Origin: Argopecten irradians
Lineage: Eukaryota; Mollusca; Bivalvia; Pectinida; Pectinidae
Length of the DNA stretch: 64,000 nucleotides
NCBI RefSeq assembly: GCF_041381155.1
Contig: NC_091135.1
Coordinates: forward strand, 2,114,490-2,178,489
Direction of reading: 5' to 3'
How positions within the stretch are numbered: position 1 is the stretch's first letter; each line of letters starts with the position of its first letter. The notes beneath the pieces are model-generated. The model had not been told where the DNA came from and ran no database searches. It worked only from the letters and a program-made list of their open reading frames with translations. The translations under genes were made by a program, and so were the position numbers. Positions 21,791-62,020 of the stretch are shown here, in pieces.

Positions 21791-21829
21791 ATGAAAATGT
21801 AAAATCATGTGACAAATCTATCTATATTC

Positions 21830-22510: not shown

Positions 22511-22579
22511 AATAGATTTTAAAATATTAGTAAAATAAATCGTAAATATTAATTATACACATTTAAATGAAATTAAAAC

Positions 22580-27010: not shown

Positions 27011-27027
27011 AAATGTCTTACATATGA

Positions 27028-36571: not shown

Positions 36572-38888
36572 TGTTCTGTCTCAAAAAATCAAAAAGTTCC
36601 TTGAACTGTTTCCAACCTTTATTACAGATCCACATAAAGTGGTGTATAGTGGCTTATAGTGGAGTATAGTAAAACCTGAAATACAAACAAGTAAATATTG
36701 TTACTTAATGATCTCTGACTTCTGTAGTCATTCACTCTTACAGATACAAATATTAATCCTAAGGATTAAACTTATTACATAAGTGCTAATTTCACAAACA
36801 CCTAATAAAGTTGTAATAACTATTGCACAAATAAACACTATTCTGGACTAGATCACACTTACACAATGAATTAGTCAATGTAATATTTCAAGAGAAATAT
36901 TAAAAGTGTACTTGTTAACTCTACAGTAAATATGCAGATACAGGTATTTACTGTCGTGTCGGTCTAACCGTTGACGACGACAGTGATGTACTCGCCGCGC
37001 AACTTGCACAATACCATTGCATACTGGGTTACAATATAATGCTAAACGCGAGTTGATTGGTTGGTGGGCGTGGCTTTATCGTGTGATATGTGTGACCCAC
37101 GTGTGATAGATCTATCCTGAACTCATCGGGTATTACCGTACTCTAAGAACTAGATCTATCCTGAACTCATCGGGTATTACCGTATTCATAAGAACTGCAG
37201 GATGTGTCCATACTTTCTATTACCCGCAGTTAAAGCTGTAGTATTAAATGCGATAACGCGGTTTTCATGAGCTGCTGTCCGTGTTTCAGCCGGGATAGAC
37301 TGGATAACTTTTTGCGTCACCGCTAGCATAATTCACGGTAGGGATTGTGCATCACAAACGTTAGCTAGGCTACTTCGAGAACAACGTACATGTAATGGCT
37401 GCCGTGAGGCCCGCCTCGCGGACAGTTCACCTCTGTTTGTTTCTTTATCAATCAACTTTTTAAATATCAAAGTACTTTTAATTCACTACGGATTTATCGT
37501 CTGTTAATGGATTTCTTACAGAATGTGTCGTTTTTCAAACATTCAAGGACAAACATCATACATTCGTAGATATATCTAACACTGTTATCGTTACTGTAAG
37601 CCTTACGTTTATGTACGTGGAAATGCAGCAAATTGCTCTAAATTCTCAAATGGCCGACGGAACCGTTTGCGGCGTACGAACATTCCTCTCCAATAAACGG
37701 GGCATTATTTTATTTCTGTTTATATTCTATAAACATAAGACTTCGTTGGTAATTTTGCTTGGGTTCCGATAAACAGGTAAATGGGTCAAATGTCCCGCGT
37801 GCAGTCACATTTCTTTATAATCTTGTGACAACCTCCTCTCGTAACATCAGGTTTTTTTTTACTAATCTCATGAAAAAGATAATCCTTTAGTTTATAATGA
37901 AGATCAAGTAATTCACGACGAAGTTTACCGTCCGTCAGTACCCCGTTAACATAAGATCTTCCACACACGCTTTTTTATCAGGTGCAGCCATATTGCCTTT
38001 CAAACTCTAGAACATTGTTAGATAAACTCCGCCCATTCGTTCTATCGCCTGACGTCAGGTAGGCTATCTAAACTCAGCCCCTCAGACAATTGACAGAACC
38101 ACTCGACCAGTTGATAATACTGTCGCTCAACATACCGAGGTATTACATCATTTATTTTGTCAACGGTTAGACCGACACGACAGTAATAACTTGACAATTG
38201 GTACATACTATCTCTGAGTATCAAGATGGGATTTCCTTATCATTATAGGATATATAACAATTCAATCCTTTAATATTATGATTTGACACATGAAAATAAG
38301 AGAAAACTGTAATTCACATGATTAACCTCTCTACAACGACAACCTGCATACATCGACCATTGCCTATACGAGATTTTCTATTTTGCATACCGACTAACAA
38401 TGATTAAACCATGTGCACTAGTAATTTACATTTAGCTAGGGCATACATGTTATACATCTTATCTACCACTAAGATACAAAATAATATCGTAAAGACTGAT
38501 AGGTATTGCTTTATAAACAGCAATAATAAAACGACATCACTCAAAAACATGTCAGAGAATCAAATTGACAAACTGCACGATTTCCGGTGAAATCAAAACA
38601 TCGCTTCATGTGCATTTATACAAAAAATACCAAATACATGGTACGCACATAGCTTCATCACAATTTTAAATTGTCACACATGAAATAATTAATGCATTTA
38701 ACATTAAACTATACACTTACAACGTGTGGGGCCACATAGTTGCTACATTTTTGCAGTTTTATCTCTCTCTCTCGAGACCATCCTTTCCTTGGGCGGAAAT
38801 GACATACAGACAGGGGCAGGTAACTCTAATACCATACCTTGATTATTAAGTTATCAATCAAAGGGAGAGAACTCCTGGTTCCATCACA
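36572..38888 (-). repeat. BEL/Pao LTR1 (contains a nested DNA transposon)
   Basis: The leftmost LTR. On the minus strand it begins TGTGATGGAACC after a purine-rich GACGGGGAG tract and ends AGACAGAACA. Without the nested element at 36951-38183 and its duplicated TA it is about 1,082 bp, like the other three. The left flank GAGAC could be one half of a 5-bp target duplication; its partner is lost with the right end of the array. Confidence 0.85.
36951..38183. mobile_element. 1,233-bp TA-flanked DNA transposon inside LTR1
   Basis: Perfect 25-bp terminal inverted repeats begin CTGTCGTGTCGGTCTAACCG. TA lies on each side (36949-36950 and 38184-38185). The uninterrupted site is visible in LTR2, LTR3 and LTR4, which confirms the boundaries. 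The TA duplication suggests a Tc1/mariner-like element. Two short minus-strand frames (37786-37968, and one overlapping 38042-38183) have no recognisable transposase motif, so it is probably non-autonomous. The perfect ends and its absence from the other LTRs mean it arrived recently. Confidence 0.85.
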
Positions 38889-39089
38889 CTCCCCGTCTGA
38901 TATTAATAATATCACTAACTTTATCTCTAATCAACTTAAGAGTAACATATTTATAAATAAAATAATTCCAGCTCTTAACAGTAAATTTTGCAAAGGTTTC
39001 AACATGATGTTCATGAACTAAACTGTTACACACTTAGACATCAATTATACACAACATAGTTTATCACTTGACCACAGCTGACAGTCTAT

Positions 39090-41090
39090 GTCTCCTTGGA
39101 ACAAATGATAACAACCTGAGTAACTGGACGGACGAATGTTGACTTCTTTCCTTCTCGCGATATCTGAATCTCAACTTTCCTAACAAGTCCATCTTCACTA
39201 GGAAAGGTACGCGTGATTACACCAAGAGGCCAATCGTTGCGCGCTGTTTGTTCATCCTTCATGAGAACAACGTCTCCCTCCTCAAGGTTGCGAGACTCGT
39301 GATTCCACTTCCTCCTGCCCTGCAACACAGGTAGAAACTCCAGAACTGCTCAGCGAGCACCTGCACATGCTTCCACTGTGATCTAAGCATGTCTTTCTGG
39401 TTAAAATATTCAAACGACTCGATCCGACTTCCTGTTTTCTGTGTCAAAAGGGTTGCTGGAGATAAGATTAATGGTTCATATACATCTGTTGAAACAGGAA
39501 TCAATGGTCGCGCGTTGATGATCGCTGTTACTTCTGCCATAAATGTCGACAAGTAACCTCGTAGTGAGGTTACGATTGTTGTTGAGGAACATGGAGTCTA
39601 GTATGCGTCGTGCAACGCCAATCATCCTTTCCCAGGAGCCTCCAAAGTGTGAGGCGTGGGGAGGATTAAATTTCCAGATGGTACCAGATTCACGGAGAAA
39701 TTCTTTGATGTTTGGGTCTTCTATGAAGATTGCTGTAGCGTCAAGGTCCGAGATTGCCCCAACAAAATTGGTTCCCCTATCAGAACGGAACTCTGCAACT
39801 TTTCCTCTAATGGCGTAGAATCTTCTCACAGAGTTTATAAACGATGATGAGCTCATTTCTTCCAGTAACTCAATATGAACCGCCCTAGATGACAGACACG
39901 TGAAGAGCACTGCCCAGCGTTTACTTGAAGCTGAACCGCCTCTTGTCCTGCGTGTGACAATGGTCCAAGGTCCAAAAACATCGACACCAACGAATGTAAA
40001 TGGCGGGCTTGGCGTAACACGATCGATCCACTGGTAGATCAGCCATCTTCTGTTGGGAATGCTTTCCTCGAAGTTTCCGACACTTCACACAGTGATGAAT
40101 GACGAAAGAAACCAGTCTCTTGACCCCAGTGATCCAAAAGCCTGCGGCCCTTATCGCCCCTTCTGTCAGGTGTCTGCCCTGATGTTGAACAGCGTTATGG
40201 AAGTGTCTAGTCAACAGCATTGCGACGTAATGTTGGCCGGGTACTAAGATAGGGTTCACTTCGTGTCTCGGTAAATCTGAGTTCTGTAGCCTTCCTCCAA
40301 CACGTATCATGCCGTTTTCGTCCAAGTAGGGTGAAAGTTCCTTTGGACATTTCCTAATGTCCCCATAGAATTCCCTTTGTAATTCTCTGATAATAAATGC
40401 TTCTGCAGAAGCACAGTTTTCAACTGACCGATAAATGTCACACTTGTGCCATCCTATGCACTTGCCGTGATTTGACTTGAAAGACTCAGCTAAGTGTTTT
40501 ATCAAAGATATTGACAACAACAGCCTTTTCCAACTTGAGAACTTCTCAAATCGCTCTGACCAATTATGAGGTTTCTCACTGTTCGTTATGTCCGTTTTAG
40601 CCACGTGAACAACCTCAGGTCGAACTTCAGTATCCTCCTCTGGGGTAACCAAAGGGAAAATTAAGGATTCAGTTGGGGATATGTTTGGTTTAGGTCCTTG
40701 AATCCACATGCTCTCCTCTTAGCGAGCTGGATCGATGTATCGAGTGCCGACATCTGCAGGGTTATTCTCGGTAGAGATGTAGAACCAATGGTCTGGTCTA
40801 GAAAATTCCAGGATCCTGCAGACTCTGTTGGCCACATAGATATAAAACCGTCGAGTTGTGTTAGTTACGTAGCCCAGTACAACTTTACTATCGGTGTGGA
40901 AAAACACATGTTCTCGGGGAAAGAATAGCTCTTCTGTGACAATTTCTGCTATTTCCACGGCTAAGACTGCGGTACATAATTCCAGACGTGGAATTGTATG
41001 ACCATAACGCGGTGCTACTCGGATCTTATTTGGTTTCTTAGGATGATAAATGCCGAAAAGAGGCAAATACCAGCACTCCTCAAGTTTACT
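39090..41090 (-). pseudogene. BEL/Pao body A: RNase H and integrase parts
   Basis: The RNase H part shows FFHTDSKVVLGYV and NNPADVGTR motifs. The integrase part has a zinc-binding HHCVKC segment, the core FRSDRGTNFVG and PPHASHFGGSWERM motifs, and ends in the GDVVLMKDE domain typical of BEL/Pao (DUF5641-like). Fossil; broken. Confidence 0.8.
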
Positions 41091-41099
41091 CACAACTCC

Positions 41100-42870
41100 T
41101 TAAGTGGAGGGGCCACTTCCGCGTGCCCGTTGTCTAAGATTCCTTTCATAAAGGTGACAAGGTGTTCGCGCTTAACGGAATTCCTTTGAAGAGAGACATC
41201 GAGAAGCTGAGCTCGTTTAAGGGCTTGGTGCCTGTTATTAGGTAGTCTAGGACGAGGTTTGCGAAAAGGCAACGGTGCAGTCCATTTACCACTAGTGTCT
41301 CGTACAAATTCTTTGTCCATGAGATCCAGAAATGCTCTGTCTTCTACAGACAAGCCAACTTTGTTGTCATCATGAGTCTGCTTGAATACTCCTTGTCCAA
41401 TGATTGGTTCCTCGCAAACCCCTTTCACATTAAACTGATTGTCACATGGATCAAACAATGTAGGTCGACCATCTCCAAGTATCCTTGTCTTGAGAACAGA
41501 GACCTCTGATGGGTTCGGAGGATGAGTAGTTCCCAGACATACATTCCCTACAACCACCCAACCAAGGTTTAGCCTCTGGGCAAATGGTGAATTGGGTGGA
41601 CCAATAATCTGCTCACAGATGTGATGAGCCTCTGGCACGTCGCGCCCAATCAACAGTAGAATTTCAGAATTAGACCGTAACGGAGGCAACTTGACGTCCT
41701 TCAAATTACTGTGATAGTTGGTGATCTCTGGAGTAGGAATCTCTGTACGGTTGTTGGGTATCTGATCACACTCCAGTATGTCAGGTAAGGGTAAGGTAAA
41801 CTGGCCGTTCAGAGAGGAAACTGAGAATCCATGTGCGCGCCGACCCTGTGTCGGCAAGTCCCCTGCACAGGATACCAGAGTATATTGTTCAACTGTCTCT
41901 CCTGAGACATCCATGATATTGAAGAAACCAGGCTTGCACAATGTCCGATTACTTTGATCGTCGATTATGGCATACATGTAGGTAGCTTGCTCTGGTGAGT
42001 TAGTCCTATGAACTCGAACAAGTATTGTTTTTGAACAAGATCTGCCTGTAAACGTTCCTCCACACACGCGCGTACATTTACTCACAACGCCTTCATTCTC
42101 CCCGCCGTTCTGACTAGTCGTTATCTCCCCACCGTTCGGACTTGTAGAATTATTGTTGTTTTTTGTCTGGCTTATGACCATTTCGATTTCCGGATGTAGA
42201 ATGTCCATCCCTGGGATGGAGCGCCGTAGGGTGCTGACTGCTGCTGCATTCTGCGCATTTTACAGAGACTGAACAGTTTTTGTATATATGAGCATCTGTG
42301 TCACACAACATCGAAAACATAAGCGGTGTTCGCTTAATATACGTCTCCGTTCCGACAAGGATTTAAGACGGAATGCCCTGCACTGATTTATGTCGTGGTT
42401 AGATGTGTGTTGTGTATCAAACACTGTTTCTTGGGTTGTTTGTTAGAGTTCTCGTTAGACGACACCTGAGTTTTATTCACCTGAATATTTGACCGAACTC
42501 TGTCCTTGGAACGCGGTTCATTGCTTGTACGAGTGGTCAACGTATCTTTATATACAAGGCCGGGGTCATTAAGCATAGAGCTCATTTCCTTTATGAACAC
42601 CACAAATTCCGAGAATGGAGGAAAGGCTTCTCTTCTCCTTCTTATACCTTGCAGCTCTGACTGTCCATTTCCCTTGGATATGGAGAGGCAATTTACCCAC
42701 AATGGGGAGAACGTCTTTTTCTTCTGATGGGACCTTTCCATCTCTGTTGGAGTAGCATGGGCGTTGTCGGGAACCTGCAGTTGTGACCCATACTCCTGCA
42801 TGGGCGCAAGATACCCTCCTTGCTCAAACAATTTGCTGGGATCCTGATCCCTGGATGTAGACATCATGTA
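41100..42870 (-). pseudogene. BEL/Pao body A: protease region and gag remnant
   Basis: The retropepsin-like part shows YMYAIIDDQSNRTLCKPGFF and LLIGRDVPEAH, the pattern of BEL/Pao proteases. The gag side retains only part of the zinc-knuckle and N-terminal sequence found in B and C. Fossil; broken. Confidence 0.75.
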
Positions 42871-42897
42871 CTGTGCAGCTGATACACGTTGTTTTAC

Positions 42898-44007
42898 TGT
42901 TCTGTCTCAAAAAACAGAAAGTTCCTTGAACTGTTTCCAACCTTTATTACAGATCCACATAAAGTGGTGTATAGTGGCTTATAGTGGAGTATAGTAAAAC
43001 CTGAAATACAAACAAGTAAATATTGTTACTTAATGATCTCTAACTTCTGTAGTCATTCACTCTTACAGATACAAATATTAATCCTAAGGATTAAACTTAT
43101 TACATAAGTGCTAATTTCACAAACACCTAATAAAGTTGTAATAACTATTGCACAAATAAACACTATTCTGGACTAGATCACACTTACACAATGAATTAGT
43201 CAATGTAATATTTCAAGAGAAATATTAAAAGTGTACTTGTTAACTCTACAGTAAATATGCAGAAACAGGTATTTAATAACTTGACATTTGGTACATACTA
43301 TCTCTGAGTATCAAGATGGGATTTCCTTATCATTATAGGATATAACAATTCAATCCTTTAATATTATGATTTGACAAATGAAAATAAAAGAAAACTGTAA
43401 TTCACATGATTAACCTCTCTACAACGACAACCTGCATACAACGACAACCTGTCTACATCGAAAACCTGCATACATCGACCATTGCCTATACGAGGTTTTC
43501 TATTTTGCATACCGACTAACAATGATTAAACCATGTGCACTAGTAATTTACATTTAGCTAGGGCATACATGTTATACATGGCTATATACCACTAAGATAC
43601 AAAATAATATCGTAAAGACTGATAGGTATTGCTTTATAAACAGCAATAATAAAACGACATCACTCAAAAACATGTCAGAGAATCAAATTGACAAACTGCA
43701 CGATTTCCGGTGAAATCAAAACATCGCTTCATATGCATTTATACAAAAAATACCAAATACATGGTACGCACATAGCTTCATCACAATTTTAAATTGTCAC
43801 ACATGAAATAATTAATGCATTTAACATTAAACTATACACTTACAACGTGTGGGGCCACATAGTTGCTATATTTTTGCAGTTTTATCTCTCTCGAGACCAT
43901 CCTTTCCTTGGGCGGAAATGACATACAGACAGGGGCAGGTAACTCTAATACCATACCTTGATTATTAAGTTATCAATCAAAGGGAGAGAACTCCTGGTTC
44001 CATCACA
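42898..44007 (-). repeat. BEL/Pao LTR2
   Basis: 1,110 bp, shared by bodies A and B. Same ends as LTR1 (TGTGATGG start and GAACA end on the minus strand). It has the intact site that carries the TA transposon in LTR1. The leader between its end and the gag start in body A is only about 30 bp; I saw no standard TGG primer-binding site there. Confidence 0.85.
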
Positions 44008-44219
44008 CTCCCCGTCTGATATTAATAATATCACTAACTTTATCTCTAATCAACTTAAGAGTAACATATTTATAAACAAAATAATTCCAGCTCTTAACAG
44101 TAAATTTTGCAAAGGTTTCAACATGATGTTCATGAACTAAACTGTTACACACTTAGACATCAATTATACACAACATAGTTTATTACTTGACCACAGCTGA
44201 CAGTCTATGTCTCCTTGGA

Positions 44220-46220
44220 ACAAATGACAACAACCTGAGTAACTGGACGGACGAATGTTGACTTCTTTCCTTCTCGCGATATCTGAATCTCAACTTTCCT
44301 AACAAGTCCATCTTCACTAGGAAAGGTACGCGTGATTACACCAAGAGGCCAAATCGTTGCGCGCTGTTTGTTCATCCTTCATGAGAACAACGTCTCCCTC
44401 CTCAAGGTTGCGAGACTCGTGATTCCACTTCCTCCTGGCATGTAACACAGGTAGAAACTCCTTTCGCCATCGACTCCAGAACTGCTCAGCGAGCACCTGC
44501 ACATGCTTCCACTGTGATCTAAGCATGTCTTTCTGGTTAAAATATTCAAACGACTCGATCCGACTTCCTGTTTTCTGTGTCAAAAGGGTTGCTGGAGATA
44601 AGATTAATGGTTCATCTACATCTGTTGAAACAGGAATCAATGGTCGCGCGTTGATGATCGCTGTTACTTCTGCCATAAATGTCGACAAGACTTCGTGCGT
44701 GAGGTTACGATTGTTGTTGAGGAACATGGAGTCTAGTATGCGTCGTGCAACGCCAATCATCCTTTCCCAGGAGCCTCCAAAGTGTGAGGCGTGGGGAGGA
44801 TTAAATTTCCAGATGGTACCAGATTCACGGAGAAATTCCTTGATGTTTAGGTCTTCTATGAAGATTGCTGTAGCGTCAAGGTCCGAGATTGCCCCAACAA
44901 AATTGGTTCCCCTATCAGAACGGAACTCTGCAACTTTTCCTCTAATGGCGTAGAATCTTCTCACAGAGTTTATAAACGATGATGAGCTCATTTCTTCCAG
45001 TAACTCAATATGAACCGCCCTAGATGACAGACACGTGAAGAGCACTGCCCAGCGTTTACTTGAAGCTGAACCGCCTCTTGTCCTGCGTGTGACAATGGTC
45101 CAAGGTCCAAAAACATCGACACCAACGAATGTAAATGGCGGGCTTGGCGTAACACGATCCACTGGTAGATCAGCCATCTTCTGTTGGGAATGCTTTCCTC
45201 GAAGTTTCCGACACTTCACACAGTGATGAATGACGAAAGAAACCAGTCTCTTGACCCCAGTGATCCAAAAGCCTGCGGCCCTTATCGCCCCTTCTGTCAG
45301 GTGTCTACCCTGATGTTGAACAGCGTTATGGAAGTGTCTAGTCAACAGCATCGCGACGTAATGTTGGCCGGGTACTAAGATAGGGTTCACTTCGTGTCTC
45401 GGTAAATCTGAGTTCTGTAGCCTTCCTCCAACACGTATCATGCCGTTTTCGTCCAAGTAGGGTGAAAGTTCCTTTGGACATTTCCTAGTGTCCCCATAGA
45501 ATTCCCTTTGTAATTCTCTGATAATAAATGCTTCTGCAGAAGCACAGTTTTCAACTGACCGATAAATGTCACACTTGTGCCATCCTATGCACTTGCCGTG
45601 ATTTGACTTGAAAGACTCAGCTAAGTGTTTTATCAAAGATATTGACAACAACAGCCTTTTCCAACTTGAGAACTTCTCAAATCGCTCTGACCAATTATGA
45701 GGTTTCTCACTGTTCGTTATGTCCGTTTTAGCCACGTGAACAACCTCAGGTCGAACTTCAGTATCCTCCTCTGGGGTAACCAAAGGGAAAATTAAGGATT
45801 CAGTTGGGGATATGTTTGGTTTAGGTCCTTGAATCCACATGCTCTCCTCTTAGCGAGCTGGATCGATGTATCGAGTGCCGACATCTGCAGGGTTATTCTC
45901 GGTAGAGATGTAGAACCAATGGTCTGGTCTAGAAAATTCCAGGATCCTGCAGACTCTGTTGGCCACATAGATATAAAACCGTCGAGTTGTGTTAGTTACG
46001 TAGCCCAGTACAACTTTACTATCGGTGTGGAAAAACACATGTTCTCGGGGAAAGGATAGCTCTTCTGTGACAATTTCTGCTATTTCCACGGCTAAGACTG
46101 CGGTACATAATTCCAGACGTGGAATTGTATGACCATGACGCGGTGCTACTCGGATCTTATTTGGTTTCTTAGGATGATAAACGCCGAAAAGAGGCAAATA
46201 CCAGCACTCCTCAAGTTTAC
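44220..46220 (-). pseudogene. BEL/Pao body B: RNase H and integrase parts
   Basis: The same RNase H (FFHTDSKVVLGYV) and integrase (HHCVKC zinc segment; FRSDRGTNFVG; HFGGSWERM) signatures as body A. Fossil; broken. Confidence 0.8.
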
Positions 46221-46279
46221 TCACAACTCCTTAAGTGGAGGGGCCACTTCCGCGTGCCCGTTGTCTAAGATTCCTTTCA

Positions 46280-49200
46280 TAAAGGTGACAAGGTGTTCGC
46301 GCTTAACGGAATTCCTTTGAAGAGAGACATCGAGAAGCTGAGCTCGTTTAAGGGCTTGGTGCTCTCTATATTAGGTAGTCTAGGACGAGGTTTGCGAAAA
46401 GGCAACGGTGCAGTCCATTTACCACTAGTGTCTCGTACAAATTCTTTGTCCATGAGATCCAGAAATGCTCTGTCTTCTACAGACAAGCCAACTTTGTTGT
46501 CATCATGAGTCTGCTTGAATACTCCTTGTCCAATGATTGGTTCCTCGCAAACCCCTTTCACATTAAACTGATTGTCACATGGATCAAACAATGTAGGTCG
46601 ACCATCTCCAAGTATCCTTGTCTTGAGAACAGAGACCTCTGATGGGTTCGGAGGATGAGTAGTTCCCAGACATACATTCCCTACAACCACCCAACCAAGG
46701 TTTAGCCTCTGGGCAAATGGTGAATTGGGTGGACCAATAATCTGCTCACAGATGTGATGAGCCTCTGGCACGTCGCGCCCAATCAACAGTAGAATTTCAG
46801 AATTAGACCGTAACGGAGGCAACTTGACGTCCTTCAAATGACTGTGATAGTTGGTGATCTCTGGAGTAGGAATCTCTGTACGGTTGTTGGGTATCTGATC
46901 ACACTCCAGTATGTCAGGTAAGGGTAAGGTAAACTGGCCGTTCAGAGAGGAAACTGAGAATCCATGTGCGCGCCGACCCTGTGTCGGCAAGTCCCCTGCA
47001 CAGGATACCAGAGTATATTGTTCAACTGTCTCTCCTGAGACATCCATGATATTGAAGAAACCAGGCTTGCACAATGTCCGATTACTTTGATCGTCGATTA
47101 TGGCATACATGTAGGTAGCTTGCTCTGGTGAGTTAGTCCTATGAACTCGAACAAGTATTGTTTTTGAACAAGATCTGCCTGTAAACGTTCCTCCACACAC
47201 GCGCGTACATTTACTCACAACGCCTTCATTCTCCCCGCCGTTCTGACTAGTCGTTATCTCCCCACCGTTCGGACTTGTAGAATTATTGTTGTTTTTGTCT
47301 GGCTTATGACCATTTCGATTTCCGGATATAGAATGTCCATCCCTGGGATGGAGCGCCGTAGGGTGCTGACTGCTGCTGCATTCTGCGCATTTTACAGAGA
47401 CTGAACAGTTTTTGTATATATGAGCATCTGTGTCACAACATCGAAAACATAAGCGGTGTTCGCTTAATATACGTCTCCGTTCCGACAAGGATTTAAGACG
47501 GAATGCCCTGCACTGATTTATGTCGTGGTTAGATATGTTGTGTATCAAACACTGTTTCTTGGGTTGTTTGTTAGAGTTCTCGTTAGACGACACCTGAGTT
47601 TTATTCACCTGAATATTTGACCGAACTCTGTCCTTGGAACGCGGTTCATTGCTTGTTCGAGTGGTCAACGTATCTTTATATACAAGGCCGGGGTCATTAA
47701 GCATAGAGCTCATTTCCTTTATGAACACCACAGATTCCGAGAATGGAGGAAAGGCTACACTCTTCTCCTTTTTATACCTTGCAGCTCTGACTGTCCATTT
47801 CCCTTGGATATGGAGAGGCAATTTACCCACAATGGGGAGAACGTCTGAAGAGGTGTTGTAATAGCCTAATAATGAGCCATAAATGGGATCTTCCATCATG
47901 GCTCCCACTTCTGAAAGAATGTCTGCCAATTCGTATAATTTGGCATTATCCTTTGAACCCAACCTTGGAAACTTCTCTAGTTTCCTTTTTAATGAGGCCT
48001 CTACCATTTCCGGACATCCATATCGCTCGTGGAGACGCTCTTATGCTCAAAGCGTGCTTCTTGGACTCCGGTCCCAACCACTTGAAAAGCAGGTCGAATT
48101 CCTCATTAGCTGTCACGCTGAGTTCTTTGGTTACAGACTGGAAACTAGCCTTCCACATTGAAAATGTTTCAGGTTTGTCGTCAAAGGTGGTAAGTCTCTG
48201 CAGGAGCAAGTCCTTACGTAACAGGTACTTAGTGAAATCAGAATAACCTAGTCGTTCTGGGTAAAAACTAGGTGCATTAGGATCCATCTGTTGTCTATTG
48301 TCATTAATCGTCCTATCAGACTTTTTCTCCATCAATGGAAGACTCATGTACTGGACACCTACCTCCTTCAAAGGCAGAATCTTGACCTGTATTTATCGGT
48401 GCAAGGGTGTTGTTTTCCAATCTAGGAGGTCCATGGCTCTCAGTCTGTGCCTGCGCATTGATAAACTGCGCTGTAAGCTCCTTACTGTCCATCGAAGGTA
48501 ATGAGAGTTGTGGTCCTCTGTCTATGTCGCCTTCACCATACTCCTCATACATGGCCTCAAGTTCGGCTTGAGCTACGGCTGCTGCTCGTTGTGATTTTAG
48601 ATACTGGAGGTCAGATTCATACTGAGCTCTCTGTCGAAGAATTTCAGCATCCATCTTGGCCTGGTGTTTCTGCATCTCAACTTCTTGGCGTGTAAATGTC
48701 AAACTAGTTTTAGCTGCTTCTAACTTTGCACGTTGAAGTGCTAATAGCGAACTCCTGCGACTACTAGAACTGCTCACTGATGAATGACTTTTGGTTTGAG
48801 AGTTCTTTTTCACTTCTTGTTTCTGCTCTTTGTTTTCTTCGATATCTGTTTCTGGCTGCTTAAGAATCTCCACCATCTCGTTATGCACATCTGTTACCTT
48901 TCTATAGATTTTGATATGTATCATCTCTTGCGAAACTTTCTCACTATTACTGGAGGAGGTATTAATACAAGTTAAATATTTCATAAATCCTTTCACCTCG
49001 TCTAGGTATTTGTCATAGACCGCTCCTAGCTGATCCTTTAGTTTTATCACTAAGTCTCTTTCGTGCTTGGCCGAGTTAAACTCTTCGATAGTATCCTCTA
49101 CCTTTTTTCGGAGTTTGATAAGTTTGGCGGTACTTGTCTCTACCGTGGCCTCATACAGTTCCTCCCCACCTCCTGTGAGGTTTTTCTTCCGATGGGACCT

Positions 49201-49330: not shown

Positions 49331-49362
49331 ATGTACTGTGCAGCTGATACACGTTGTTTTAC

Positions 49363-50450
49363 TGTTCTGTCTCAAAAAAACAGAAAGTTCCTTGAACTGT
49401 TTCCAACCTTTATTACAGATCCACATAAAGTGGTGTATAGTAGCTTATAGTGGAGTATAGTAAAACCTGAAATACAAACAAGTAAATATTGTTACTTAAT
49501 GATCTCTAACTTCTGTAGTCATTCACTCTTACAGATACAAATATTAATCCTAAGGATTAAACTTATTACATAAGTGCTAATTTCACAAACACCTAATAAA
49601 GTTGTAATAACTATTGCACAAATAAACACTATTCTGGACTAGATCACACTTACACAATGAATTAGTCAATGTAATATTTCAAGAGAAATATTAAAAGTGT
49701 ACTTGTTAACTCTACAGTAAATATGCAGAAACAGGTATTTAATAACTTGACATTTGGTACATACTATCTCTGAGTATCAAGATGGGATTTCCTTATCATT
49801 ATAGGATATAACAATTCAATCCTTTAATATTATGATTTGACAAATGAAAATAAAAGAAAACTGTAATTCACATGATTAACCTCTCTACAACGACAACCTG
49901 CATACAACGACAACCTGTCTACATCGAAAACCTGCATACATCGACCATTGCCTATACGAGGTTTTCTATTTTGCATACCGACTAACAATGATTAAACCAT
50001 GTGCACTAGTAATTTACATTTAGCTAGGGCATACATGTTATACATGGCTATCTACCACTAAGATACAAAATAATATCGTAAAGACTGATAGGTATTGCTT
50101 TATAAACAGCAATAATAAAACGACATCACTCAAAAACATGTCAGAGAATCAAATTGACAAACTGCACGATTTCCGGTGAAATCAAAACATCGCTTCATGT
50201 GCATTTATACAAAAAATACCAAATACATGGTACGCACATAGCTTCATCACAATTTTAAATTGTCACACATGAAATAATTAATGCATTTAACATTAAACTA
50301 TACACTTACAACGTGTGGGGCCACATAGTTGCTACATTTTTGCAGTTTTATCTCTCTCGAGACCATCCTTTCCTTGGGCGGAAAATGACATACAGACAGG
50401 GGCATTATTAAGTTATCAATCAAAGGGAGAGAACTCCTGGTTCCATCACA
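49363..50450 (-). repeat. BEL/Pao LTR3
   Basis: 1,088 bp, shared by bodies B and C; near-identical to LTR2 and LTR4 apart from a few small length differences. Confidence 0.85.
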
Positions 50451-50649
50451 CTCCCCGTCTGATATTAATAATATCACTAACTTTATCTCTAATCAACTTA
50501 AGAGTAACATATTTATAAACAAAATAATTCCAGCTCTTAACAGTAAATTTTGCAAAGGTTTCAACATGATGTTCATGAACTAAACTGTTACACACTTAGA
50601 CATCAATTATACACAACATAGTTTATCACTTGACCACAGCTGACAGTCT

Positions 50650-52670
50650 ATGTCTCCTTGGAACAAATGACAACAACCTGAGTAACTGGACGGACGAATG
50701 TTGACTTCTTTCCTTCTCGCGATATCTGAATCTCAACTTTCCTAACAAGTCCATCTTCACTAGGAAAGGTACGCGTGATTACACCAAGAGGCCAATCGTT
50801 GCGCGCTGTTTGTTCATCCTTCATGAGAACAACGTCTCCCTCCTCAAGGTTGCGAGACTCGTGATTCCACTTCCTCCTGGCCTGTAACACAGGTAGAAAC
50901 TCCTTTCGCCATCGACTCCAGAACTGCTCAGCGAGCACCTGCACATGCTTCCACTGTGATCTAAGCATGTCTTTCTGGTTAAAATATTCAAACGACTCGA
51001 TCCGACTTCCTGTTTTCTGTGTCAAAAGGGTTGCTGGAGATAAGATTAATGGTTCATCTACATCTGTTGAAACAGGAATCAATGGTCGCGCGTTGATGAT
51101 CGCTGTTACTTCTGCCATAAATGTCGACAAGACTTCGTGCGTGAGGTTACGATTGTTGTTGAGGAACATGGAGTCTAGTATGCGTCGTGCAACGCCAATC
51201 ATCCTTTCCCAGGAGCCTCCAAAGTGTGAGGCGTGGGGAGGATTAAATTTCCAGATGGTACCAGATTCACGGAGAAATTCCTTGATGTTTAGGTCTTCTA
51301 TGAAGATTGCTGTAGCGTCAAGGTCCGAGATTGCCCCAACAAAATTGGTTCCCCTATCAGAACGGAACTCTGCAACTTTTCCTCTAATGGCGTAGAATCT
51401 TCTCACAGAGTTTATAAACGATGATGAGCTCATTTCTTCCAGTAACTCAATATGAACCGCCCTAGATGACAGACACGTGAAGAGCACTGCCCAGCGTTTA
51501 CTTGAAGCTGAACCGCCTCTTGTCCTGCGTGTGACAATGGTCCAAGGTCCAAAAACATCGACACCAACGAATGTAAATGGCGGGCTTGGCGTAACACGAT
51601 CCACTGGTAGATCAGCCATCTTCTGTTGGGAATGCTTTCCTCGAAGTTTCCGACACTTCACACAGTGATGAATGACGAAAGAAACCAGTCTCTTGACCCC
51701 AGTGATCCAAAAGCCTGCGGCCCTTATCGCCCCTTCTGTCAGGTGTCTACCCTGATGTTGAACAGCGTTATGGAAGTGTCTAGTCAACAGCATCGCGACG
51801 TAATGTTGGCCGGGTACTAAGATAGGGTTCACTTCGTGTCTCGGTAAATCTGAGTTCTGTAGCCTTCCTCCAACACGTATCATGCCGTTTTCGTCCAAGT
51901 AGGGTGAAAGTTCCTTTGGACATTTCCTAGTGTCCCCATAGAATTCCCTTTGTAATTCTCTGATAATAAATGCTTCTGCAGAAGCACAGTTTTCAACTGA
52001 CCGATAAATGTCACACTTGTGCCATCCTATGCACTTGCCGTGATTTGACTTGAAAGACTCAGCTAAGTGTTTTATCAAAGATATTGACAACAACAGCCTT
52101 TTCCAACTTGAGAACTTCTCAAATCGCTCTGACCAATTATGAGGTTTCTCACTGTTCGTTATGTCCGTTTTAGCCACGTGAACAACCTCAGGTCGAACTT
52201 CAGTATCCTCCTCTGGGGTAACCAAAGGGAAAATTAAGGATTCAGTTGGGGATATGTTTGGTTTAGGTCCTTGAATCCACATGCTCTCCTCTTAGCGAGC
52301 TGGATCGATGTATCGAGTGCCGACATCTGCAGGGTTATTCTCGGTAGAGATGTAGAACCAATGGTCTGGTCTAGAAAATTCCAGGATCCTGCAGACTCTG
52401 TTGGCCACATAGATATATAAAACCGTCGAGTTGTGTTAGTTACGTAGCCCAGTACAACTTTACTATCGGTGTGGAAAAACACATGTTCTCGGGGAAAGGA
52501 TAGCTCTTCTGTGACAATTTCTGCTATTTCCACGGCTAAGACTGCGGTACATAATTCCAGACGTGGAATTGTATGACCATGACGCGGTGCTACTCGGATC
52601 TTATTTGGTTTCTTAGGATGATAAACGCCGAAAAGAGGCAAATACCAGCACTCCTCAAGTTTACTCACAA
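50650..52670 (-). pseudogene. BEL/Pao body C: RNase H and integrase parts
   Basis: The integrase part is the best preserved of the four, with zinc-binding, catalytic-core (VGVDVFGPW; FRSDRGTNFVG; HFGGSWERM) and C-terminal GDVVLMKDE segments, preceded by RNase H (FFHTDSKVVLGYV). Fossil; the element as a whole is broken. Confidence 0.8.
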
Positions 52671-52679
52671 CTCCTTAAG

Positions 52680-55600
52680 TGGAGAGGGCCACTTCCGCGT
52701 GCCCGTTGTCTAAGATTCCTTTCATAAAGGTGACAAGGTGTTCGCGCTTAACGGAATTCCTTTGAAGAGAGACATCGAGAAGCTGAGCTCGTTTAAGGGC
52801 TTGGTGCCTATTATTAGGTAGTCTAGGACGAGGTTTGCGAAAAGGCAACGGTGCAGTCCATTTACCACTAGTGTCTCGTACAAATTCTTTGTCCATGAGA
52901 TCCAGAAATGCTCTGTCTTCTACAGACAAGCCAACTTTGTTGTCATCATGAGTCTGCTTGAATACTCCTTGTCCAATGATTGGTTCCTCGCAAACCCTTT
53001 CACATTAAACTGATTGTCACATGGATCAAACAATGTAGGTCGACCATCTCCAAGTATCCTTGTCTTGAGAACAGAGACCTCTGATGGGTTCGGAGGATGA
53101 GTAGTTCCCAGACAATACATTCCCTACAACCACCCAATCAAGGTTTAGCCTCTGGGCAAATGGTGAATTGGGTGGACCAATAATCTGCTCACAGATGTGA
53201 TGAGCCTCTGGCACGTCGCGCCCAATCAACAGTAGAATTTCAGAATTAGACCGTAACGGAGGCAACTTGACGTCCTTCAAATGGACTGTGATAGTTGGTG
53301 ATCTCTGGAGTAGGAATCTCTGTACGGTTGTTGGGTATCTGATCACACTCCAGTATGTCAGGTAAGGGTAAGGTAAACTGGCCGTTCAGAGAGGAAACTG
53401 AGAATCCATGTGCGCGCCGACCCTGTGTCGGCAAGTCCCCTGCACAGGATACCAGAGTATATTGTTCAACTGTCTCTCCTGAGACATCCATGATATTGAA
53501 GAAACCAGGCTTGCACAATGTCCGATTACTTTGATCGTCGATTATGGCATACATGTAGGTAGCTTGCTCTGGTGAGTTAGTCCTATGAACTCGAACAAGT
53601 ATTGTTTTTGAACAAGATCTGCCTGTAAACGTTCCTCCACACACGCGCGTACATTTACTCACAACGCCTTCATTCTCCCCGCCGTTCTGACTAGTCGTTA
53701 TCTCCCCACCGTTCGGACTTGTAGAATTATTGTTGTTTTTGTCTGGCTTATGACCATTTCGATTTCCGGATGTAGAATGTCCATCCCTGGGATGGAGCGC
53801 CGTAGGGTGCTGACTGCTGCTGCATTCTGCGCATTTTACAGAGACTGAACAGTTTTTGTATATATGAGCATCTGTGTCACAACATCGAAAACATAAGCGG
53901 TGTTCGCTTAATATACGTCTCCGTTCCGACAAGGATTTAAGACGGAATGCCCTGCACTGATTTATGTCGTGGTTAGATGTGTTGTGTATCAAACACTGTT
54001 TCTTGGGTTGTTTGTTAGAGTTCTCGTTAGACGACACCTGAGTTTTATTCACCTGAATATTTGACCGAACTCTGTCCTTGGAACGCGGTTCATTGCTTGT
54101 TCGAGTGGTCAACGTATCTTTATATACAAGGCCGGGGTCATTAAGCATAGAGCTCATTTCCTTTATGAACACCACAGATTCCGAGAATGGAGGAAAGGCT
54201 ACACTCTTCTCCTTCTTATACCTTGCAGCTCTGACTGTCCATTTCCCTTGGATATGGAGAGGCAATTTACCCACAATGGGGAGAACGTCTGAAGAGGTGT
54301 TGTAATAGCCTAATAATGAGCCATAAATGGGATCTTCCATCATGGCTCCCACTTCTGAAAGAATGTCTGCCAATTCGTATAATTTGGCATTATCCTTTGA
54401 ACCCAACCTTGGAAACTTCTCTAGTTTCCTTTTTAATGAGGCCTCTACCATTTCCGGACATCCATATCGCTCGTGGAGACGCTCTTATGCTCAAAGCGTG
54501 CTTCTTGGACTCCGGTCCCAACCACTTGAAAAGCAGGTCGAATTCCTCATTAGCTGTCACGCTGAGTTCTTTGGTTACAGACTGGAAACTAGCCTTCCAC
54601 ATTGAAAATGTTTCAGGTTTGTCGTCAAAGGTGGTAAGTCTCTGCAGGAGCAAGTCCTTACGTAACAGGTACTTAGTGAAATCAGAATAACCTAGTCGTT
54701 CTGGGTAAAAACTAGGTGCATTAGGATCCATCTGTTGTCTATTGTCATTAATCGTCCTATCAGACTTTTTCTCCTCAATGGAAGACTCATGTACTGGACA
54801 CCTACCTCCTTCAAAGGCAGAATCTTGACCTGTATTTATCGGTGCAAGGGTGTTGTTTTCCAATCTAGGAGGTCCATGGCTCTCAGTCTGTGCCTGCGCA
54901 TTGATAAACTGCGCTGTAAGCTCCTTACTGTCCATCGAAGGTAATGAGAGTTGTGGTCCTCTGTCTATGTCGCCTTCACCATACTCCTCATACATGGCCT
55001 CAAGTTCGGCTTGAGCTACGGCTGCTGCTCGTTGTGATTTTAGATACTGGAGGTCAGATTCATACTGAGCTCTCTGTCGAAGAATTTCAGCATCCATCTT
55101 GGCCTGGTGTTTCTGCATCTCAACTTCTTGGCGTGTAAATGTCAAACTAGTTTTAGCTGCTTCTAACTTTGCACGTTGAAGTGCTAATAGCGAACTCCTG
55201 CGACTACTAGAACTGCTCACTGATGAATGACTTTTGGTTTGAGAGTTCTTTTTCACTTCTTGTTTCTGCTCTTTGTTTTCTTCGATATCTGTTTCTGGCT
55301 GCTTAAGAATCTCCACCATCTCGTTATGCACATCTGTTACCTTTCTATAGATTTTGATATGTATCATCTCTTGCGAAACTTTCTCACTATTACTGGAGGA
55401 GGTATTAATACAAGTTAAATATTTCATAAATCCTTTCACCTCGTCTAGGTATTTGTCATAGACCGCTCCTAGCTGATCCTTTAGTTTTATCACTAAGTCT
55501 CTTTCGTGCTTGGCCGAGTTAAACTCTTCGATAGTATCCTCTACCTTTTTTCGGAGTTTGATAAGTTTGGCGGTACTTGTCTCTACCGTGGCCTCATACA

Positions 55601-55775
55601 GTTCCTCCCCACCTCCTGTGAGGTTTTTCTTCCGATGGGACCTTTCCATCTCTGTCGGAGTAGCATGGGCGTTGTCGGGAACCTGCAGTTGTGACCCATA
55701 CTCCTGCATGGGCGCAAGATACCCTCCTTGCTCAAACAATTTGCTGGGATCCTGATCCCTGGATGTAGACATCAT
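52680..55775 (-). pseudogene. BEL/Pao body C: gag and protease parts
   Basis: Coiled-coil gag, DUF1759-like block, zinc knuckles (CFRCCDTDAHIYKNC; CAECSSSQH) and protease (AIIDDQSN), as in body B. Fossil; broken. Confidence 0.8.
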
Positions 55776-55805
55776 GTACTGTGCAGCTGATACACGTTGT
55801 TTTAC

Positions 55806-56920
55806 TGTTCTGTCTCAAAAAAACAGAAAGTTCCTTGAACTGTTTCCAACCTTTATTACAGATCCACATAAAGTGGTGTATAGTGGCTTATAGTGGAGTA
55901 TAGTAAAACCTGAAATACAAACAAGTAAATATTGTTACTTAATGATCTCTAACTTCTGTAGTCATTCACTCTTACAGATACAAATATTAATCCTAAGGAT
56001 TAAACTTATTACATAAGTGCTAATTTCACAAACACCTAATAAAGTTGTAATAACTATTGCACAAATAAACACTATTCTGGACTAGATCACACTTACACAA
56101 TGAATTAGTCAATGTAATATTTCAAGAGAAATATTAAAAGTGTACTTGTTAACTCTACAGTAAATATGCAGAAACAGGTATTTAATAACTTGACATTTGG
56201 TACATACTATCTCTGAGTATCAAGATGGGATTTCCTTATCATTATAGGATATATAACAATTCAATCCTTTAATATTATGATTTGACAAATGAAAATAAAA
56301 GAAAACTGTAATTCACATGATTAACCTCTCTACAACGACAACCTGCATACAACGACAACCTGTCTACATCGAAAACCTGCATACATCGACCATTGCCTAT
56401 ACGAGGTTTTCTATTTTGCATACCGACTAACAATGATTAAACCATGTGCACTAGTAATTTACATTTAGCTAGGGCATACATGTTATACATGGCTATATAC
56501 CACTAAGATACAAAATAATATCGTAAAGACTGATAGGTATTGCTTTATAAACAGCAATAATAAAACGACATCACTCAAAAACATGTCAGAGAATCAAATT
56601 GACAAACTGCACGATTTCCGGTGAAATCAAAACATCGCTTCATGTGCATTTATACAAAAAATACCAAATACATGGTACGCACATAGCTTCATCACAATTT
56701 TAAATTGTCACACATGAAATAATTAATGCATTTAACATTAAACTATACACTTACAACGTGTGGGGCCACATAGTTGCTACATTTTTGCAGTTTTATCTCT
56801 CTCGAGACCATCCTTTCCTTGGGCGGAAATGACATACAGACAGGGGCAGGTAACTCTAATACCATACCTTGATTATTAAGTTATCAATCAAAGGGAGAGA
56901 GAACTCCTGGTTCCATCACA
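55806..56920 (-). repeat. BEL/Pao LTR4
   Basis: 1,115 bp, shared by bodies C and D; ends as in the other LTRs. Confidence 0.85.
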
Positions 56921-57119
56921 CTCCCCGTCTGATATTAATAATATCACTAACTTTATCTCTAATCAACTTAAGAGTAACATATTTATAAACAAAATAATTC
57001 CAGCTCTTAACAGTAAATTTTGCAAAGGTTTCAACATGATGTTCATGAACTAAACTGTTACACACTTAGACATCAATTATACACAACATAGTTTATCACT
57101 TGACCACAGCTGACAGTCT

Positions 57120-59140
57120 ATGTCTCCTTGGAACAAATGACAACAACCTGAGTAACTGGACGGACGAATGTTGACTTCTTTCCTTCTCGCGATATCTGAA
57201 TCTCAACTTTCCTAACAAGTCCATCTTCACTAGGAAAGGTACGCGTGATTACACCAAGAGGCCAATCGTTGCGCGCTGTTTGTTCATCCTTCATGAGAAC
57301 AACGTCTCCCTCCTCAAGGTTGCGAGACTCGTGATTCCACTTCCTCCTGGCCTGTAACACAGGTAGAAACTCCTTTCGCCATCGACTCCAGAACTGCTCA
57401 GCGAGCACCTGCACATGCTTCCACTGTGATCTAAGCATGTCTTTCTGGTTAAAATATTCAAACGACTCGATCCGACTTCCTGTTTTCTGTGTCAAAAGGG
57501 TTGCTGGAGATAAGATTAATGGTTCATCTACATCTGTTGAAACAGGAATCAATGGTCGCGCGTTGATGATCGCTGTTACTTCTGCCATAAATGTCGACAA
57601 GACTTCGTGCGTGAGGTTACGATTGTTGTTGAGGAACATGGAGTCTAGTATGCGTCGTGCAACGCCAATCATCCTTTCCCAGGAGCCTCCAAAGTGTGAG
57701 GCGTGGGGAGGATTAAATTTCCAGATGGTACCAGATTCACGGAGAAATTCCTTGATGTTTAGGTCTTCTATGAAGATTGCTGTAGCGTCAAGGTCCGAGA
57801 TTGCCCCAACAAAATTGGTTCCCCTATCAGAACGGAACTCTGCAACTTTTCCTCTAATGGCGTAGAATCTTCTCACAGAGTTTATAAACGATGATGAGCT
57901 CATTTCTTCCAGTAACTCAATATGAACCGCCCTAGATGACAGACACGTGAAGAGCACTGCCCAGCGTTTACTTGAAGCTGAACCGCCTCTTGTCCTGCGT
58001 GTGACAATGGTCCAAGGTCCAAAAACATCGACACCAACGAATGTAAATGGCGGGCTTGGCGTAACACGATCCACTGGTAGATCAGCCATCTTCTGTTGGG
58101 AATGCTTTCCTCGAAGTTTCCGACACTTCACACAGTGATGAATGACGAAAGAAACCAGTCTCTTGCCCCAGTGATCCAAAAGCCTGCGGCCCTTATCGCC
58201 CCTTCTGTCAGGTGTCTACCCTGATGTTGAACAGCGTTATGGAAGTGTCTAGTCAACAGCATCGCGACGTAATGTTGGCCGGGTACTAAGATAGGGTTCA
58301 CTTCGTGTCTCGGTAAATCTGAGTTCTGTAGCCTTCCTCCAACACGTATCATGCCGTTTTCGTCCAAGTAGGGTGAAAGTTCCTTTGGACATTTCCTAGT
58401 GTCCCCATAGAATTCCCTTTGTAATTCTCTGATAATAAATGCTTCTGCAGAAGCACAGTTTTCAACTGACCGATAAATGTCACACTTGTGCCATCCTATG
58501 CACTTGCCGTGATTTGACTTGAAAGACTCAGCTAAGTGTTTTATCAAAGATATTGACAACAACAGCCTTTTCCAACTTGAGAACTTCTCAAATCGCTCTG
58601 ACCAATTATGAGGTTTCTCACTGTTCGTTATGTCCGTTTTAGCCACGTGAACAACCTCAGGTCGAACTTCAGTATCCTCCTCTGGGGTAACCAAAGGGAA
58701 AATTAAGGATTCAGTTGGGGATATGTTTGGTTTAGGTCCTTGAATCCACATGCTCTCCTCTTAGCGAGCTGGATCGATGTATCGAGTGCCGACATCTGCA
58801 GGGTTATTCTCGGTAGAGATGTAGAACCAATGGTCTGGTCTAGAAAATTCCAGGATCCTGCAGACTCTGTTGGCCACATAGATATAAAAAACCGTCGAGT
58901 TGTGTTAGTTACGTAGCCCAGTACAACTTTACTATCGGTGTGGAAAAACACATGTTCTCGGGGAAAGGATAGCTCTTCTGTGACAATTTCTGCTATTTCC
59001 ACGGCTAAGACTGCGGTACATAATTCCAGACGTGGAATTGTATGACCATGACGCGGTGCTACTCGGATCTTATTTGGTTTCTTAGGATGATAAACGCCGA
59101 AAAGAGGCAAATACCAGCACTCCTCAAGTTTACTCACAAC
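57120..59140 (-). pseudogene. BEL/Pao body D: RNase H and integrase parts
   Basis: The same signatures as the other copies (FFHTDSKVVLGYV; HHCVKC; FRSDRGTNFVG; HFGGSWERM; GDVVLMKDE). Fossil; broken. Confidence 0.8.
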
Positions 59141-62020
59141 TCCTTAAGTGGAGGGGCCACTTCCGCGTGCCCGTTGTCTAAGATTCCTTTCATAAAGGTG
59201 ACAAGGTGTTCGCGCTTAACGGAATTCCTTTGAAGAGAGACATCGAGAAGCTGAGCTCGTTTAAGGGCTTGGTGCCTATTATTAGGTAGTCTAGGACGAG
59301 GTTTGCGAAAAGGCAACGGTGCAGTCCATTTACCACTAGTGTCTCGTACAAATTCTTTGTCCATGAGATCCAGAAATGCTCTGTCTTCTACAGACAAGCC
59401 AACTTTGTTGTCATCATGAGTCTGCTTGAATACTCCTTGTCCAATGATTGGTTCCTCGCAAACCCCTTTCACATTAAAACTGATTGTCACATGGATCAAA
59501 CAATGTAGGTCGACCATCTCCAAGTATCCTTGTCTTGAGAACAGAGACCTCTGATGGGTTCGGAGGATGAGTAGTTCCCAGACATACATTCCCTACAACC
59601 ACCCAATCAAGGTTTAGCCTCTGGGCAAATGGTAAATTGGGTGGACCAATAATCTGCTCACAGATGTGATGAGCCTCTGGCACGTCGCGCCCAATCAACA
59701 GTAGAATTTCAGAATTAGACCGTAACGGAGGCAACTTGACGCCCTTCAAATGACTGTGATAGTTGGTGATCTCTGGAGTAGGAATCTCTGTACGGTTGTT
59801 GGGTATCTGATCACACTCCAGTATGTCAGGTAAGGGTAAGGTAAACTGGCCGTTCAGAGAGGAAACTGAGAATCCATGTGCGCGCCGACCCTGTGTCGGC
59901 AAGTCCCCTGCACAGGATACCAGAGTATATTGTTCAACTGTCTCTCCTGAGACATCCATGATATTGAAGAAACCAGGCTTGCACAATGTCCGATTACTTT
60001 GATCGTCGATTATGGCATACATGTAGGTAGCTTGCTCTGGTGAGTTAGTCCTATGAACTCGAACAAGTATTGTTTTTGAACAAGATCTGCCTGTAAACGT
60101 TCCTCCACACACGCGCGTACATTTACTCACAACGCCTTCATTCTCCCCGCCGTTCTGACTAGTCGTTATCTCCCCACCGTTCGGACTTGTAGAATTATTG
60201 TTGTTTTTGTCTGGCTTATGACCATTTCGATTTCCGGATGTAGAATGTCCATCCCTGGGATGGAGCGCCGTAGGGTGCTGACTGCTGCTGCATTCTGCGC
60301 ATTTTACAGAGACTGAACAGTTTTTGTATATATGAGCATCTGTGTCACAACATCGAAAACATAAGCGGTGTTCGCTTAATATACGTCTCCGTTCCGACAA
60401 GGATTTAAGACGGAATGCCCTGCACTGATTTATGTCGTGGTTAGATGTGTTGTGTATCAAACACTGTTTCTTGGGTTGTTTGTTAGAGTTCTCGTTAGAC
60501 GACACCTGAGTTTTATTCACCTGAATATTTGACCGAACTCTGTCCTTGGAACGCGGTTCATTGCTTGTACGAGTGGTCAACGTATCTTTATTATACAAGG
60601 CCGGGGTCATTAAGCATAGAGCTCATTTCCTTTATGAACACCACAAATTCCGAGAATGGAGGAAAGGCTACACTCTTCTCCTTCTTATACCTTGCAGCTC
60701 TGACTGTCCATTTCCCTTGGATATGGAGAGGCAATTTACCCACAATGGGGAGAACGTCTGAAGAGGTGTTGTAATAGCCTAATAATGAGCCATAAATGGG
60801 ATCTTCCATCATGGCTCCCACTTCTGAAAGAATGTCTGCCAATTCGTATAATTTGGCATTATCCTTTGAACCCAACCTTGGAAACTTCTCTAGTTTCCTT
60901 TTTAATGAGGCCTCTACCATTTCCGGACATCCATATCGCTCGTGGAGACGCTCCCAAAGTCTTCAGTCCTCTAGCTGGGTTTGGATTGGAGGCTCTTATG
61001 CTCAAAGCGTGCTTCTTGGACTCCGGTCCCAACCACTTGAAAAGCAGGTCGAATTCCTCATTAGCTGTCACGCTGAGTTCTTTGGTTACAGACTGGAAAC
61101 TAGACTTCCACATTGAAAATGTTTCAGGTTTGTCGTCAAAGGTGGTAAGTCTCTGCAGGAGCAAGTCCTTACGTAACAGGTACTTAGTGAAATCAGAATA
61201 ACCTAGTCGTTCTGGGTAAAAACTAGGTGCATTAGGATCCATCTGTTGTCTATTGTCATTAATCGTCCTATCAGACTTTTTCTCCATCAATGGAAGACTC
61301 ATGTACTGGACACCTACCTCCTTCAAAGGCAGAATCTTGACCTGTATTTATCGGTGCAAGGGTGTTGTTTTCCACTCTAGGAGGTCCATGGCTCTCAGTC
61401 TGTGCCTGCGCATTGATAAACTGCGCTGTAAGCTCCTTACTGTCCATCGAAGGTAATGAGAGTTGTGGTCCTCTGTCTATGTCGCCTTCACCATACTCCT
61501 CATACATGGCCTCAAGTTCGGCTTGAGCTACGGCTGCTGCTCGTTGTGATTTTAGATGCTGGAGGTCAGATTCATACTGAGCTCTCTGTCGAAGAATTTC
61601 AGCATCCATCTTGGCCTGGTGTTTCTGCATCTCAACTTCTTGGCGTGTAAATGTCAAACTAGTTTTAGCTGCTTCTAACTTTGCACGTTGAAGTGCTAAT
61701 AGCGAACTCCTGCGACTACTAGAACTGCTCACTGATGAATGACTTTTGGTTTGAGAGTTCTTTTTCACTTCTTGTTTCTGCTCTTTGTTTTCTTCAATTA
61801 ATGTACCCTTTATTAATACAAGTTAAATATTTCATAAATCCTTTCACCTCGTCTAGGTATTTGTCATAGACCGCTCCTAGCTGATCCTTTAGTTTTATCA
61901 CTAAGTCTCTTTCGTGCTTGGCCGAGTTAAACTCTTCGATAGTATCCTCTAAGTTTGGCGGTAATTGTCTTCGGAGTTTTTCTTTGGGACCTTGGTATCT
62001 CTGTCGGCAGTAGCATTGGC
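59140..62020 (-). pseudogene. BEL/Pao body D: gag and protease parts
   Basis: Protease (AIIDDQSN) and zinc knuckles are clear, as is the central gag. The N-terminal coiled-coil gag is only partly present. Fossil; broken. Confidence 0.75.

Follow-up and report, generated by a model that had tools for sequence, protein, structure and literature searches.

Tandem long terminal repeat (LTR) retrotransposons in which neighboring copies share an LTR have been described as common in plants, rice included (Morales-Diaz et al. 2025, PMC11899658). That study leaves open whether complex insertion or recombination gave rise to the plant tandems. It also cites precedents outside plants, namely centromeric shared-LTR tandems in kangaroo, tandems in yeast, and tandem transposable element insertions in Drosophila. 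Here we describe a head-to-tail array of BEL/Pao retrotransposons in a 64,000-nucleotide stretch of Argopecten irradians DNA (NC_091135.1; C2:2,114,490-2,178,489), which we call the window. All array units in the window lack the same piece of pol. We consider it probable that, after insertion, unequal exchange or gene conversion amplified a deleted BEL/Pao copy locally.

We compared the array to the closest described systems. Like the plant tandems, it has alternating LTRs and internal regions and its LTRs are shared; the plant tandems vary in unit number between haplotypes (PMC11899658). Unlike those gypsy and copia tandems, the array consists of BEL/Pao elements, 18 of its units share a defect that was not returned from dispersed copies, and it has no demonstrable complete flanking target duplication. 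The kangaroo, yeast, and Drosophila tandems, as cited in PMC11899658, serve as precedents outside plants. Long arrays of Cassandra, a terminal-repeat retrotransposon in miniature (TRIM), also repeat LTR/internal units many times and are ascribed to recombination (PMC7215508). Cassandra has no coding domain, whereas the array described here has 6.4-kb units with an integrase and other coding frames. Mollusc BEL/Pao elements of the Sparrow, Surcouf, and Sinbad clades (PMC6238403) belong to the same superfamily as the array, and we compare them at superfamily level.

No BEL/Pao array with shared LTRs appeared among the literature titles and abstract beginnings listed, a weak negative given that a name containing a slash is unsearchable. 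To our knowledge, the BEL/Pao superfamily is known only from animals. Structures of this kind are already known; the present array adds one from an animal element family, with a useful internal marker. This marker, a pol deletion found in the array only, can separate post-insertion growth in DNA from the insertion of a ready-made concatemer, a question that the plant study leaves open (PMC11899658). The array also suggests a way for a retrotransposon that is already dead to keep increasing in number.

Layout and identity of the array

Self-comparison of the window identified four BEL/Pao bodies on the minus strand between 36,572 and 62,020, with a unit of about 6.44 kb (Table 1). Each unit consists of one LTR of about 1.1 kb and one body, and a single LTR lies between neighboring bodies. 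The LTR termini are TGTTCTG...CATCACA, and the left end of LTR 1 has the same TGTTCTG terminus as dispersed copies. At the internal junctions that we read (window 42898 and 49363, and C2:1.94 Mb), the TGTTCTG end sits directly on the internal region, as it does inside dispersed single elements. Neighboring units therefore share one LTR. No fifth LTR was found beyond body D, at the right end of the array in the window. Unit A is unlike B, C, and D in that a 1,233-bp element interrupts its LTR and 1.3 kb of its gag is gone. The inserted element has 25-bp terminal inverted repeats (CTGTCGTGTCGG...) with TA on both sides, as judged by eye. The array reaches beyond the window, with further units on contigs C572 and C720 and at C2:1.94 Mb.

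The assignment of the array elements to BEL/Pao is supported by DUF5641 and Peptidase_A17 ("Pao retrotransposon peptidase") matches. The minus-strand order is as expected, with gag and protease-like frames (by eye) followed by an integrase with DUF5641. A Pfam search returned DUF5641 at E 5.8e-27 and rve at E 5.9e-5, the latter below its curated cut-off. The gag/protease frame had no Pfam match at E<=1; the stretch that we take to be protease-like was judged by eye. The LTRs are direct repeats of the TG...CA type. Target duplications of 5 bp flank the C11 copy (GGTAT) and a solo LTR at C13:34.6 Mb (CAACC), those of the C14 and C13:72-90 kb copies are only approximate, and in the window array the two ends are not both intact.

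Substitutions were counted between window units, ignoring indels, for the LTR and for the rest of the unit. Units B and C differ at 4/1086 LTR sites and 8/5348 other sites, B and D at 2/1086 and 16/4971, and C and D at 2/1087 and 9/4973. Among B, C, and D these values amount to 0.2-0.4% at LTR sites and 0.15-0.32% at other sites. The window LTRs are not older than the bodies in these units, and the three units are not identical assembly copies. Unit A differs from the others at 11-13 of 1051-1052 LTR sites and 22-26 of 3815-3996 remaining sites, so that its LTR differs about twice as much as the rest of the unit. A first-pass annotation of the window had described a young head-to-tail array of four bodies and four LTRs on one strand, with shared LTRs, nearly identical units B and C, and a common loss of pol parts. 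Each of these points is borne out here, and the LTRs do not show the large excess of differences over the bodies that would have spoken against the description.

The pol deletion as a marker

All four window units lack the same 1.0-kb piece of pol, which comprises the reverse-transcriptase (RT) core and most of Peptidase_A17. Of Peptidase_A17, an array unit retains only the tail, matched at E 2.2e-8 (profile 115-162 of 162, the last 48 positions). At unit position 3233, numbered on unit C (49361-55803, 6,443 bp), our reference unit for comparisons, dispersed relatives on C11, C14, C10, and C529 carry about 1,000 bp extra. On C11, the extra piece holds Peptidase_A17 positions 17-117 (E 1.6e-21) and a weak RT match (RVT_1, E 0.015, below cut-off), and the array units resume at 115. 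A search of the genome (846 Mb, 1,508 contigs) with the missing piece returned four places, on these same four contigs and all outside arrays.

A copy on C13 keeps parts of the pol piece on both sides of an insertion; the genome search list would suggest that this copy lacks the piece, and that reading was wrong. About 6.3 kb of other sequence interrupts the piece there (C13:80,488-86,791). The C529 copy is probably the other haplotype of the C13 copy. We rejected it as a separate insertion because it has the same flank as C13:90 kb and long stretches of the two are 96-98% alike. At C13:71,070-73,607, two LTR copies lie side by side with nearly the same flank (ATCTAATTAAAATACAGAT), perhaps through a local or assembly duplication.

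We searched the whole genome with a 30-base pattern across the deletion junction, allowing up to 3 mismatches. The pattern matched 15 times: four times in the window, once at C2:1.94 Mb, and five times each on C572 and C720. There were no matches elsewhere in the genome at this threshold (<=3 mismatches/30), which old, strongly diverged copies could escape. A reversed control pattern gave no matches. The alignments of three further units, C572 units 4 and 5 and C720 unit 2, which lie in error-rich stretches, also run straight across the deletion site. Deletion-bearing units total 18, with four in the window, one at C2:1.94 Mb, and 13 on C572 and C720 together. The occurrence of the deletion in 18 units and not among the dispersed copies returned marks the amplification as local.

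This distribution bears on the proposal in the first-pass annotation that the lineage was mobilized by a relative elsewhere in the genome. Relatives that keep the piece were found on C11, C14, C10, and C529, and another, on C13, keeps it in part and interrupted. However, all 15 deletion junctions returned lie in the window, at C2:1.94 Mb, or on C572 and C720, and no single-copy deleted member was returned outside the array contigs and C2:1.94 Mb. A mobilized lineage should leave single deleted copies elsewhere, so mobilization in trans is unsupported, an argument that excludes reasonably young copies alone.

Exchange between units and growth of the array

We examined exchange in 11 units from cleaner stretches, although the first and third C572 units and the last C720 unit still hold a noisy kilobase. 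The minor allele occurs in at least two of the 11 units at 26 sites, 25 of which are biallelic. By the four-gamete test, 89 of 300 pairs of biallelic sites are incompatible, corresponding to at least seven recombination intervals. The LTR of unit x1, at C2:1.94 Mb, is free of substitutions relative to LTR B, yet the unit carries D's allele at 8/8 listed body sites. The x1 LTR differs from its partner, LTR x3, at 18/1061 sites, which speaks against fresh retrotransposition because that would give a matching LTR pair. The LTRs of ten inner units differ by 0.00-0.92% among themselves (0.00-0.65% without C572 unit 2). LTR A, the left outer LTR, is 0.70-1.24% from the inner LTRs, and x3, the right outer LTR at C2:1.955 Mb, is 1.22-1.70% from the inner LTRs and A. 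Broadly, this is the pattern of recombining tandem repeats whose ends are left behind, although the range of the left LTR overlaps that of the inner ones.

On the unplaced contigs, units occupy most of C572 (50,033 bp) and the whole length of C720 (36,975 bp). C720 holds six units compared to four in the window; it is unplaced and may not be allelic. Its first unit has A's 1.3-kb gag deletion, and two body segments of this unit depart from A at 2/2124 and 1/1686 sites. The mosaic units, together with a six-unit C720 that starts with an A-like unit, fit local growth and shuffling after insertion. The third C572 unit has the A-type deletion, yet its segment 1091-3233 is 0.09% from unit C and 0.66% from A, as though the deletion and the body had been acquired in separate exchanges. 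At C2:1,945,494-1,954,046, an 8.5-kb insertion with direct terminal repeats of about 270 bp (97.8% alike) lies in the gag region of a deletion-form unit. C572 ends (47,889-50,000) inside the same insertion at the same position in the unit, which ties C572 to the C2:1.94 Mb locus.

Some C572 and C720 units appear strongly diverged. Two successive C572 units have 374 small (1-2-base) insertions versus 19 deletions and 395 versus 20, with 47 and 60 substitutions per kb. The dispersed C14 copy, which is genuinely diverged, has 32-42 substitutions per kb and 3 small insertions versus 9 deletions across three aligned pieces. We rejected the interpretation that the diverged array units are truly old, because their insertion-heavy error profile is unlike that of C14. 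The insertion-heavy profile is seen in the C572 units from 17,000 to 42,800 and in portions of C720, and large parts of both contigs appear to be uncorrected long-read sequence. In unpolished contigs, array units that are nearly identical can pass for old ones, and divergence estimates made from such contigs mislead.

The left end of the array and a right end at C2:1,955,366 are both embedded in one dispersed repeat family, with almost no difference in phase. The flanking bases are TGAGAC at the left end and TGAAAC at this candidate right end, and the two could have bounded a single old insertion. The right flank of the C2:1.955 Mb end recurs on C1293, so a second version of the right end exists. 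The C2 sequence that we read leaves out 1,964,001-2,114,489.

Under local growth, the founding event would be the insertion of a BEL/Pao element into the chromosome to which the window belongs. A copy that lost about 1 kb of pol with the RT core would have become the repeated unit. The first tandem would have formed through mispairing of direct LTRs between sister chromatids or homologues. Whole units would have mispaired later, and unequal exchange or gene conversion would have added, removed, and shuffled them. Growth, loss, and shuffling of units is the sole directly supported stage. We infer that the first tandem was made by exchange in DNA and not by reverse transcription, and that C572 and C720 represent either further haplotypes or portions of the same locus that the assembly did not join to it; the order of the deletion and the first tandem step is likewise inferred. 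The founding insertion may itself already have been deleted. Evenly balanced, in our judgment, is the broader idea that an RT-less BEL/Pao element has turned into a 6.4-kb macrosatellite that lives solely by LTR-mediated unequal exchange and differs in unit number between haplotypes.

Several observations weigh against local growth. Unlike the flanks at C11 and C13:34.6 Mb, the TGAGAC/TGAAAC pair does not form a clean 5-bp duplication, and the candidate partner ends are separated by 196 kb of C2 and ordered in a way that simple expansion leaves unexplained. The contrast between inner and outer LTRs is unclean: inner C572 unit 2 is up to 0.92% off, and the range of the left LTR overlaps. Gene conversion alone could give mosaic sites at unchanged copy number. 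In a noisy stretch of the LTR, 24/457 sites distinguish the first C720 unit from A, and the last C720 unit has D's allele at only 2/8 sites, which makes equating its end with D's weak. A's 1.3-kb gag deletion is shared by the third C572 unit, and 48/1673 sites of a partly noisy segment distinguish this unit from A. One C572 unit, spanning roughly 37.8-41.8 kb, begins within the missing piece and retains about 250-300 bp of it; either a fuller element joined the array or the contig is chimeric. C572 and C720 are both unplaced and partly unpolished, and our evidence is the assembled sequence. In the C572 unit at 37.8-41.8 kb, gag is 8.45% from C11 and 11.24% from unit C, and about 1.8 kb of unassigned sequence precedes the unit.

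The first-pass annotation had offered two origins, LTR-LTR unequal recombination and concatemer insertion. The former fits best, and the latter ranks as a rival. In a concatemer origin, an element that already carried the deletion would have formed a multimer, as tandem cDNA or from circles, which would have inserted once, with an RT-bearing relative helping in trans. This event would likewise yield shared LTRs and one deletion in every unit, and the route is discussed as possible in the plant study (PMC11899658). Relatives that keep the pol piece exist, and one has LTRs 3/1083 apart, indicating that the family was active recently. We nevertheless regard a concatemer as unlikely. The junction search returned no single deleted copy from elsewhere within its 3 mismatches in 30, and the left-end LTR is 1.0-1.2% from those of B, C, and D, which are 0.2-0.4% from one another. 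In addition, unit x1 combines B-type and D-type parts.

It is very improbable that an assembler duplicated one element. In favor of this reading, the units are very similar, and the unplaced contigs bear signatures of uncorrected reads. However, substitutions separate every pair of window units, unit A has both an insertion with clean inverted ends and the loss of gag sequence, and unit D has a degraded end, all of which argue against assembler duplication. No run of N was found in the window, C720, C572:1-50000, or the C2 stretch examined. The error-rich C572 units at 17-35.9 kb, which have raw-long-read-like errors and lie head to tail, may hint at one or a few real molecules carrying a tandem. 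We find it hardly credible that deleted elements inserted independently at one hotspot, nested or side by side: the shared repeat and near-same phase at the left array end and the C2:1.955 Mb right end could mean target preference, but the shared LTRs already count against this reading, the internal junctions that we read have no duplicated target bases, and the C11 and C13:34.6 Mb insertions used different targets.

Feature coordinates and nearby repeats

Table 1. Features of the BEL/Pao array and its flanks in the window; LTR positions were converted from C2 coordinates.
Feature	Window position	Strand	Remarks
Left flank	36102-36571	.	dispersed tandem-repeat family, ~320-bp period, directly outside LTR 1
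LTR 1, left array end	36572-36950 + 38184-38888	-	C2:2151061-2151439 + 2152673-2153377; split by insertion
Insertion in LTR 1	36951-38183	.	1,233 bp; by eye and from alignment gap
Body A	38889-42897	-	lacks 1-kb pol piece and gag at unit positions ~4930-6264
LTR 2, common to units A and B	42898-44007	-	
Body B	44008-49362	-	gag/protease-like frames, integrase and DUF5641; lacks reverse-transcriptase core
LTR 3, common to units B and C	49363-50450	-	
Body C	50451-55805	-	
Deletion junction, unit C	52593-52594	-	unit position ~3233/3234; equivalent junction in all four window units
LTR 4, common to units C and D	55806-56920	-	
Body D, truncated	56921-62020	-	collinear to 61798; further match 61811-61951; degraded gag to ~62020 (by eye)
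Right flank	62021-62800	.	abundant dispersed repeat adjoining truncated body D

We found no TGG-type primer-binding site by eye in the roughly 30 bases inside the LTR at the junction of body A and LTR 2 (window 42870-42897, minus strand). Priming of the element may be unusual, as no such site is visible beside LTR 2. The window sequence had no match in plasmid records, as expected for animal DNA.

Two other repeat structures lie to the left of the array. Inverted copies at window 18562-19968 and 25594-27014 (86% alike) surround a 46-bp minisatellite of 42.5 copies at 23625-25592. The whole structure (18562-27014) resembles a mobile element with a tandem-repeat core, and a related repeat adjoins the array at 62021. 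Outside the array, inverted repeats of 331 bp at 31534-31864 and 32338-32668 are 98.8% alike and lie 473 bp apart.

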